Positions 52,953 through 55,233 of a stretch of DNA of 64,000 nt are shown here, in pieces. Below the pieces are notes generated by a model. It saw nothing but the letters and a program-made list of their open reading frames with translations. It did not search any database and had not been told where the DNA came from. The position numbers and the translations under genes are program-made. The stretch lies in the NCBI RefSeq assembly GCF_003751635.1, contig NZ_RJVI01000001.1, forward strand, positions 722,726-786,725, in the 5' to 3' direction. How positions within the stretch are numbered: position 1 is the stretch's first letter; each line of letters starts with the position of its first letter. This DNA comes from Inmirania thermothiophila (GTDB taxonomy: Bacteria > Pseudomonadota > Gammaproteobacteria > DSM-100275).

Positions 52953-52970
52953 TGTCAGTTTTTTTTACAG
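52953..52970 (+). promoter_or_regulatory. Conserved 18-base box upstream of first PEP-CTERM gene
   Basis: TGTCAGTTTTTTTTACAG matches the box at 54272-54289 in 15 of 18 positions, with half-sites TGT and ACA separated by 11 bases. It lies about 80-95 bases before the predicted sigma-54 start, where an enhancer-binding activator would sit. In PEP-CTERM organisms a sigma-54-dependent response regulator (PrsR type) is thought to recognise a PEP-CTERM box; identity with that box is inferred. Confidence 0.55.
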
Positions 52971-53021
52971 CGCGCCCGGGGATTTCCTGAACGATCCTGG
53001 AAAAACAAAGGGTTGCGTGCC

Positions 53022-53037
53022 TGGCATGCCGCGTGCA
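53022..53037 (+). promoter_or_regulatory. Sigma-54 type promoter of first PEP-CTERM gene
   Basis: TGGCATGCCGCGTGCA has the invariant GG and GC doublets exactly ten bases apart, as in TGGCAC-N5-TTGC. It is followed by ATGGACT, shared with the second gene's promoter. Its start point would be near 53048, about 30 bases before the ATG. Confidence 0.65.
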
Positions 53038-53078
53038 TGGACTGCCGTGGAGTCCACGCAGGCAAAGGAGGAGTCGCC

Positions 53079-54206
53079 ATGAGAGGCGGAACACGATTGG
53101 GCCTGGCCGCGGCCCTGGCCTTCGGCGGGTGGGGTCTCGCCCACGCCGCCGCCATCGCACCGGCGAGCTACACGGACACCCTCGCGGTGGGTGAGACGGT
53201 GGTGGTGAGCAAGACGGTGACCACCGACCCGACCCTGGATTTCGTCGACTTCTACTTCCTCGCCGACAACACCGGCAGCATGGGCACCGTCATCGGCAAC
53301 GTGCAGAGCGTGGCGACGAGCCTGCTCGGCTCCCTCAGCACCACCTACAGCAACGCCGCCTTCGGCGTCGGGCGCTACTTCGGCGACCCCAGCGAGGGGG
53401 TCGGGTTCGACAACGCCTACGACGTCCTCCAGCCCATCACCACCAGCACCACCGCGGCCACCACCGCCATGGGGAACTGGATCGCGTTCGGCGGCGGCGA
53501 CGCCGCGGAGGCGAACCTCTACGCCCTCCACCAGGCGGCCACCGACGGCGCCGATACCGCAGGGCCCGGGACCGGCAGCGGCGAGGCCACCGGCTGGCGT
53601 GCCGGGGCGCAGAAGGTGATCCTGTGGTTCGGCGATATCTTCGGCCACCAGGACACGGTGACCCTCGCCGATGCCATCGCCACCCTGACCGGCGAGGGCG
53701 TGATCGTGGTCGGCTTCAACAGCACCGCTGCGGGGACCGGCATCGACGGGTCGTTCGCGGACGGTACCGGCGATGGGCGGAACCAGGCCTCGGCCATCAC
53801 CACGGCCACGGGGGGCGCGCTGGTCAACGACTTCGTCTCGGTGCCGACCGGGGATCTCGTCAGCACCATCGTCAGCGCCGTGGGGACGGCCACCGCCACC
53901 TTCGACCTCTCGCTCTTCGTCTCCGGCGGTGACACCTCCGGCCTCAACGTCAGCTTCGCCTGCACCGACCCGGCGGGCTGCGACGACGTGACCGGCGGCG
54001 AGTCGCGCACCTTCTCCATGACCATCACCGGCCTCGTTCCCGGGACCTACGACTTCACCGTCGGCGTGACCGGTTTCAGCAGCATCAGCGAGGACGACCA
54101 CATCACCGTCACCGGCGGGCCCACGACGGTTCCGGAGCCCGCGAGCCTGCTGCTGCTCGGCGCCGGTCTCGCCGGGCTCGGCTTCGCCCGCCGCCGCGCC
54201 GCCTGA
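53079..54206 (+). CDS. Secreted von Willebrand A-type PEP-CTERM protein 1
   Basis: A 375-residue exported protein of unknown function. The signal peptide ends near AHA (residue 23). A von Willebrand factor A-like domain follows, with a metal-binding start DNTGS (Asp63, Thr65, Ser67), so the usual DxSxS has threonine in the middle. An alternating Thr/Ser/Gly-rich region runs to about residue 340. The last 25 residues are a PEP-CTERM sorting signal: [16 protein letters not shown], a short helix, then FARRRAA. Exosortase should cleave it and anchor or release the protein at the surface. AAAGGAGGAG precedes the ATG. No exosortase or polysaccharide gene lies in the window. Confidence 0.88.
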   Translation: MRGGTRLGLAAALAFGGWGLAHAAAIAPASYTDTLAVGETVVVSKTVTTDPTLDFVDFYFLADNTGSMGTVIGNVQSVATSLLGSLSTTYSNAAFGVGRYFGDPSEGVGFDNAYDVLQPITTSTTAATTAMGNWIAFGGGDAAEANLYALHQAATDGADTAGPGTGSGEATGWRAGAQKVILWFGDIFGHQDTVTLADAIATLTGEGVIVVGFNSTAAGTGIDGSFADGTGDGRNQASAITTATGGALVNDFVSVPTGDLVSTIVSAVGTATATFDLSLFVSGGDTSGLNVSFACTDPAGCDDVTGGESRTFSMTITGLVPGTYDFTVGVTGFSSISEDDHITVTGGPTTVPEPASLLLLGAGLAGLGFARRRAA

Positions 54207-54260
54207 ACCGGCCGCAAGGCGAGACCCAGGGCCCGCCCCGGCGGGCCCTTCTCGTGCCTG
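54132..54260 (+). repeat. Duplicated PEP-CTERM tail and terminator, copy 1
   Basis: A 129-base segment covering the last 24 codons from the PEP motif, the stop codon and the terminator. It matches 55104-55233 at every base except one missing C after the stop. The identity extends into non-coding DNA, so it is not explained by protein constraint. Confidence 0.95.
54228..54249 (+). terminator. Terminator hairpin of first PEP-CTERM gene
   Basis: AGGGCCCGCC and GGCGGGCCCT form a 10-bp inverted repeat around CC, followed by TCTCGTG. It is an exact duplicate of the hairpin after the second gene. Confidence 0.65.
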
Positions 54261-54271
54261 CCGCGCGCGGG

Positions 54272-54289
54272 TGTCGGGTTTCTTTACAG
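54272..54289 (+). promoter_or_regulatory. Conserved 18-base box upstream of second PEP-CTERM gene
   Basis: TGTCGGGTTTCTTTACAG, 15 of 18 identical to the box at 52953-52970 and about 90-107 bases before the predicted sigma-54 start point. Candidate binding site for the same activator. Confidence 0.55.
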
Positions 54290-54352
54290 CCGCCCCTCGC
54301 AGGGTGCTGCGGGATCTGCGCAAGGGCCGGATTTCCCGGATCTTTTTTCGTG

Positions 54353-54368
54353 TGGCACGGGGCGTGCA
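54353..54368 (+). promoter_or_regulatory. Sigma-54 type promoter of second PEP-CTERM gene
   Basis: TGGCACGGGGCGTGCA has a perfect -24 element TGGCACG and GC ten bases after GG. Together with the following ATGGACT it repeats the layout at 53022. The start point would be near 54379, 65 bases before the ATG. Confidence 0.7.
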
Positions 54369-54443
54369 TGGACTTGGGTGTCCACCCTGTCCCGTCGGGA
54401 GCGGGGTCTCGGACGGGCCACCCACCCACAGGAGGAAGGAAGC

Positions 54444-55178
54444 ATGAACAGGAAACACTGGGCCAAGGGGATCGCGCTGGCGGCGCTGGCGGCCCTGGGC
54501 ATGGGCAGCGCCCGGGCCGTGCCCATCAACGTCGCCCTGGGCATCGTCATCGACGGCTCCGGGAGCATCTCGGCGACCGACTTCGCGACCCAGAAGTCGG
54601 CCTATGCCGCGGTCCTGGGCGATCCCACCATCGTCCCGGCCGACGGCAGCGTGGTCATCAACCTCGTGCAGTTCTCGAGCTCTGCCCAGCTCGAGCAGAC
54701 CGCGATCCGGATCTCCAGCGAGGCCGACCGCACCACGGTGCTGAACGCCGTCAACGGGATGTCCCAGCTCGGCGGCTTGACCAACATCGGCGGCGGCATC
54801 GATCTCGCGGTGTCGGACCTCGATGCGTTCCTTGCCGGGATCGGCGCGAGCGAGTTCAGCGCGGACTTTCGCAAGCTGATCGACGTCTCCACCGACGGCT
54901 TCCACAACACCGGCACGGATCCCGCCACCGCCACCGCCGCCGCCATCGCCGCAGGCTACCAGGCGGTGAACTGCCTCGGCATCGGCGCCGGCGCGGACTG
55001 CTCGTGGAACGACGGCAACGGCACCGACTTCGCCGCCACCACGTTCGGCGACCTGCAGCCGGTGCTGGAGCGCAAGCTGCGCTTCGAGATCACCGGCGAG
55101 CTGCCGGAGCCCGCGAGCCTGCTGCTGCTCGGCGCCGGTCTCGCCGGGCTCGGCTTCGCCCGCCGCCGCGCCGCCTGA
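54444..55178 (+). CDS. Secreted von Willebrand A-type PEP-CTERM protein 2 (DUF1194-like)
   Basis: A 244-residue exported protein of unknown function. The signal peptide ends near ARA (residue 25). One von Willebrand A domain fills residues ~28-210, with a complete metal site: Asp37-Ser39-Ser41 (DGSGS), Thr113 (GLTNIG) and Asp151 (STDG). Its layout resembles DUF1194 proteins. Two cysteines flank the last strand region. Residues 220-244 are the PEP-CTERM signal, identical to that of protein 1 after the first residue. GGAGGAAGGAAG precedes the ATG. It has its own box, promoter and terminator, so it can be expressed independently. Confidence 0.9.
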
Positions 55179-55233
55179 ACCCGGCCGCAAGGCGAGACCC
55201 AGGGCCCGCCCCGGCGGGCCCTTCTCGTGCCTG
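55104..55233 (+). repeat. Duplicated PEP-CTERM tail and terminator, copy 2
   Basis: A 130-base counterpart of 54132-54260, differing by a single inserted C. The coding regions before it in the two genes are not alike, so the tail looks like an exchanged or recently copied cassette. Confidence 0.95.
55201..55222 (+). terminator. Terminator hairpin of second PEP-CTERM gene
   Basis: The same 10-bp inverted repeat as at 54228-54249, 23 bases after the stop codon. leuS begins 83 bases later. Confidence 0.65.

Follow-up and report, generated by a model that had tools for sequence, protein, structure and literature searches.

Two genes for predicted exported proteins lie between lnt and leuS in Inmirania thermothiophila, and they raise the question of whether they form a self-contained module inserted into a housekeeping operon, as a first-pass annotation had proposed, or are two cargo genes of a sorting system encoded elsewhere in the genome. 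The window analysed was a stretch of 64,000 nucleotides. On its + strand, between the end of lnt (52925) and the start of leuS (about 55306), the two genes, designated vWA1 and vWA2, were found, and nothing else was evident.

Two predicted exported vWA proteins with PEP-CTERM tails

The vWA1 gene (53079–54206, + strand) encodes a predicted exported protein of 375 aa with a putative integrin-beta-like von Willebrand A (vWA) domain, followed by a beta-rich region and a PEP-CTERM tail at residues 350–372. The vWA2 gene (54444–55178, + strand) encodes a predicted exported DUF1194/vWA protein of 244 aa with a PEP-CTERM tail at residues 221–241. The translations of both showed an N-terminus with a basic start, a hydrophobic stretch and an AxA site, and both tails consisted of a PEP motif, a hydrophobic helix and an Arg cluster. 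The PEP-CTERM profile PF07589 was matched above its gathering score by vWA1 (E = 7.6e-7) and vWA2 (E = 1.7e-5). The description of two adjacent exported genes with vWA and PEP-CTERM parts was borne out, with the vWA domain of vWA1 scoring below gathering: its matches to the integrin-beta-like vWA models PF24909, PF25106 and PF00362 ranged from E = 8.7e-5 to 2.4e-3. The same models matched its full-length ortholog in genome G258 (72% identical) with E = 3.8e-8 to 2.3e-6. The predicted metal-site residues of vWA1 (D63-x-T65-x-S67, E144 and D186) were all retained in the G258 ortholog, and E144 is presumably an integrin-beta-type metal ligand.

The vWA2 protein matched PF00092 (E = 1.8e-13) and DUF1194 (PF06707, E = 6.8e-13) and had a full MIDAS (D37-x-S39-x-S41, T113 and D151), the five residues of which were invariant across 12 homologs. 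Its predicted structure had a vWA fold (pLDDT 87.8); for vWA1, single-sequence modelling gave no usable structure (pLDDT 37.6). Comparison of the vWA2 model with the PDB matched vWA domains, the best of them being that of the mussel byssus matrix protein PTMP1. No sequence similarity was found between the bodies of vWA1 and vWA2.

With its intact MIDAS and matrix-protein-like fold, vWA2 may plausibly act in metal-dependent adhesion. Bacterial vWA proteins serve in metal insertion and other roles too, which counts against the adhesion reading. PTMP1 is, like vWA2, a secreted vWA protein with a MIDAS, as is the surface adhesin Bd0875 of Bdellovibrio (PMC11003981), and Myxococcus CglB, as it is presented in PMC12282271, is a vWA/MIDAS surface adhesin. 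The proteins of this locus differ from these three in carrying a signal for PEP-CTERM/exosortase sorting and not a lipoprotein anchor or a place in a thread matrix.

Promoters, regulators and the sorting machinery

A PEP-CTERM box, the predicted PrsR enhancer site, was located upstream of each gene. The box of vWA1 (TGTCAGTTTTTTTTACA, 17 nt) lies at 52953–52969 on the + strand and is separated by a 52-nt spacer from a -24/-12 sigma-54 promoter (TGGCATGCCGCGTGCA) at 53022–53037 (+). The box of vWA2 (TGTCGGGTTTCTTTACA) lies at 54272–54288 (+), with a 64-nt spacer to its -24/-12 sigma-54 promoter (TGGCACGGGGCGTGCA) at 54353–54368 (+). A 22-nt sigma-54 stretch was 86% alike between the two genes. 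Both boxes and sites fit motif 1 (17 nt, ending in TTTACA) and motif 2 of the published regulon, for which a box-to-promoter spacer range of 32–92 nt was given and PrsR was proposed as the activator of PEP-CTERM-box genes (Haft et al. 2006, PMC1569441).

The claim that the same box and promoter precede each gene held up. Genome-wide, the combined pattern occurred at 8 sites in the 2.6 Mb genome and at 0 with a reversed control pattern, and at least six of the 8 sites stand before genes for PEP-CTERM-tailed products. One site (C2:1003021-1003116) precedes a gene for a fibro-slime-like secreted protein with a VPEP that has no transmembrane tail after it; this is perhaps a broken PEP-CTERM gene. 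Another (C3:172564-172659) precedes a gene for a 185-aa protein lacking a PEP-CTERM tail. A ninth gene in the genome has the box, with the sigma-54 site farther away.

The genome check for exosortase, PrsK, PrsR and rpoN found all four, an outcome in favour of the first-pass annotation on each of its genome-level refuting conditions. Profile search of the genome placed the XrtA exosortase at C1:666338-667114 (366 bits), PrsR at C1:628123 (725 bits) and RpoN at C3:286330 (479 bits), and PrsK scored 744 bits. The XrtA exopolysaccharide locus also encodes the export protein, chain-length determinant, TIGR03016 protein, ATPase, FemAB, two glycosyltransferases and amidotransferase, all above cut-off. 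At L014:12904-15108 the XrtA-associated ATPase (TIGR03015) is fused to a WecB-type UDP-GlcNAc 2-epimerase in one 734-aa frame, and both halves of this fusion had matches in related XrtA loci.

By these motifs and profiles, vWA1 and vWA2 are assigned to the XrtA/PEP-CTERM regulon that Haft et al. described in 2006. The likeness extends over the tail, the exosortase, the box ending in TTTACA, the spacer range, the sigma-54 site, PrsK, PrsR and the single-gene operons; the differences are that the cargo bodies here are vWA and that two cargo genes have an identical tail and hairpin block (PMC1569441). A second known case is PepA of Aquincola tertiaricarbonis, a floc-forming PEP-CTERM protein with a mapped -24/-12 promoter and an enhancer-like box, the transcription of which requires RpoN1 (PMC9850573). 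PepA resembles vWA1 and vWA2 in having this promoter and a box upstream of a gene for a PEP-CTERM protein; its body is another one, and vWA2 gave a weak match to the PepA model (31.3 bits, cut-off 80). The system is already known, and the additions made by this locus are the two cargo families and the copied tail.

We consider it likely that vWA1 and vWA2 are separately transcribed XrtA cargoes with a role in the matrix, under PrsK/PrsR/sigma-54 control, and that the tail was copied from vWA1 to vWA2. PrsK would activate PrsR, which would bind the box, and sigma-54 RNA polymerase would transcribe the two genes, each with a separate -24/-12 promoter, alongside the other PEP-CTERM genes. Both proteins would then be exported and anchored in the inner membrane by the PEP-CTERM helix, and processing by XrtA may release them into the exopolysaccharide matrix or attach them to it; the exosortase probably sorts both into the exopolysaccharide coat. 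At the surface or in the matrix, the vWA domain would bind a ligand via a metal ion.

Relatives of the two genes and the lnt–leuS interval

The vWA2 ortholog (70% identical) was found in genome G146, which the labels of the search place in the same genus as G258. In G258, vWA1 stands among three PEP-CTERM genes, and the XrtA export gene follows directly; in G146, the place of vWA2 is between an RND-like gene and the XrtA export gene. Two species of this genus have the orthologs at the head of the XrtA locus, beside its export and chain-length genes. Other relatives of vWA2 came from Sedimenticola, Paraglaciecola, Ectothiorhodospiraceae, Marinobacter, Desertibaculum, Limnobacter, Lautropia and Photobacterium. 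In two Marinobacter, the distance from the vWA2 relative to the XrtA export gene is about 4 kb. Judged from gene neighbourhoods, two lineages show an association with the XrtA locus. The gamma- and betaproteobacterial relatives have a PEP-CTERM-like tail, mostly together with a good -24/-12 site, and the vWA2 relatives are classed by their sequences as a MIDAS-intact DUF1194-PEP-CTERM family.

Another assignment, proposed for DUF1194 proteins of marine alphaproteobacteria, would make the vWA2-type protein a cargo of a type 11 secretion system (T11SS), or its partner, in place of an XrtA cargo. Marine alphaproteobacterial DUF1194/vWA proteins share PF06707, the MIDAS motif and the export signal with vWA2, and in Rhodobacteraceae DUF1194 co-occurs with T11SS outer-membrane genes (PMC12282271). 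These marine proteins differ from vWA2 in their link to T11SS genes. The alphaproteobacterial relatives compared, which were more distant, lack the PEP-CTERM tail; in the gamma/betaproteobacterial branch the tail occurs together with the sigma-54 site, and this branch lies near the XrtA locus in two genera. A T11SS role for vWA2 is extremely unlikely.

A related-locus search with vWA1 found no relative in the genome contigs or viral contigs searched, and the family-level comparison set consisted of this genome alone. On plasmids, vWA1 had no match and vWA2 matched distant DUF1194 proteins only. In the literature, the rhombosortase paper was the only one found that combined PEP-CTERM with von Willebrand.

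Each relative has one gene or the other, so that vWA1 and vWA2 do not appear to be an obligate pair, a distribution which presumes that the vWA1 and vWA2 searches sampled the same genomes. The earlier suggestion that the two proteins act together found no support in it: of two species in one genus, the first has vWA1 at its XrtA locus and the second has vWA2 there. The data do not call for a functional partnership, and the relatives with a single gene weaken it.

In the present genome, the RND gene (match end L014:7974) and the export gene (start 8215) are adjacent with a gap of at most about 0.2 kb; therefore the slot is empty and vWA2 lies elsewhere. From this gene order, vWA2 is taken to have changed place.

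The place where the two genes now stand was compared in 11 relatives with lnt at most 6 kb upstream of leuS. About three had the two genes adjacent (<0.3 kb), and in the other eight 0.7–5 kb, mostly of unrelated genes, separated them. The statement that the housekeeping run is contiguous or near in relatives is hence loosely true: adjacency holds in a few, and the interval ranges from about 0 to 5 kb among the 11. Across the class, the lnt–leuS gap is read from these loci as a variable interval and not as a conserved operon joint. In six class relatives, a zinc-ribbon gene, which we take to be of the DUF1451 type, lies directly before leuS. In this genome, a gene of that type is located at L015:5522-6142 (C1:673422-674042) on the - strand, immediately beyond the XrtA locus on its 3' side. 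The vWA genes lie at the XrtA locus elsewhere and before leuS here, and the DUF1451-type gene the reverse.

A horizontally acquired, self-contained island between lnt and leuS, with products that form one complex, would fit the separate promoter and 3' hairpin of each gene, the GC content of the pair (68–73%, against about 76–80% in lnt directly upstream) and the fact that lnt and leuS are adjacent in a few relatives. The GC content on the leuS side, however, is about the same as that of the pair, and no integrase, transposase or insertion scar was seen at the site, nor an integrase in the window. The loci governing regulation and sorting of both genes lie at least 100 kb off or on another contig, the XrtA locus of relatives has just one of the two genes, and plasmids lack a vWA1 match. 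Because the interval varies in relatives, a split operon is weak evidence of a module. The island is unlikely, and the proposal of an inserted module splitting an operon stands as a weak one.

The shared 3' block

The least expected feature of the locus is a near-identical 130-bp block in the genes of two unrelated proteins. The first copy, in vWA1 (54132–54261, + strand, 130 bp), takes in 24 PEP-CTERM tail codons and the stop, followed by a GC hairpin; the second, in vWA2 (55104–55234, +), has one inserted C by comparison. The coding part of the block was 100% identical, silent sites included, while every other PEP-CTERM tail pair in the genome was 52–72% identical. A genome-wide search with the block gave merely short or weaker pieces elsewhere. 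A second adjacent PEP-CTERM gene pair, at C3:176995-178807, has tails about 70% alike and thus no tail copy. The hairpin was strong and GC-rich (-30.7 kcal/mol, z about -2.8). Of the claim that the same terminator follows each gene, the shared 3' hairpin block stood; the hairpin has no U-run and received no score in the terminator scan.

In a rival account of the block, a whole vWA gene was duplicated in tandem and one of the two bodies was then replaced or diverged fast; in its favour, the promoter layouts of vWA1 and vWA2 are also alike. Against this, the bodies have no sequence similarity and each has its own 70–72% identical ortholog in another genus, so that the bodies split long before the tails, which are fully identical even at silent sites. 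Duplication as the source of the block was rejected for lack of body homology and is very unlikely. The tail, stop and hairpin appear instead to have been copied recently. The vWA1 ortholog tail was alike at 20 of 23 aa, against at most 15 of 23 aa for the tails of vWA2 orthologs; this suggests, from few sequences, copying from vWA1 to vWA2. vWA2 would have gained the vWA1 3' end by recombination or gene conversion, probably once the genes were neighbours. A literature search found no paper linking PEP-CTERM with gene conversion.

As direct repeats at a distance of about 973 bp, the two 130-bp copies bracket vWA2 and its promoter; the pair as a whole is not bracketed. The tail and hairpin could serve as an exchange joint at which recombination deletes, restores or swaps a cargo gene while vWA1 stays intact. 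This use of the block is quite unlikely; if true, it would make the set of matrix proteins switchable.

The copied tail bears on how sorting signals can pass among unrelated cargo genes. The two conserved cargo families bring domains with an integrin-like metal site into the XrtA exopolysaccharide pathway, for which few cargo functions are known, and vWA1 and vWA2 offer a concrete pair for the question of matrix adhesion.
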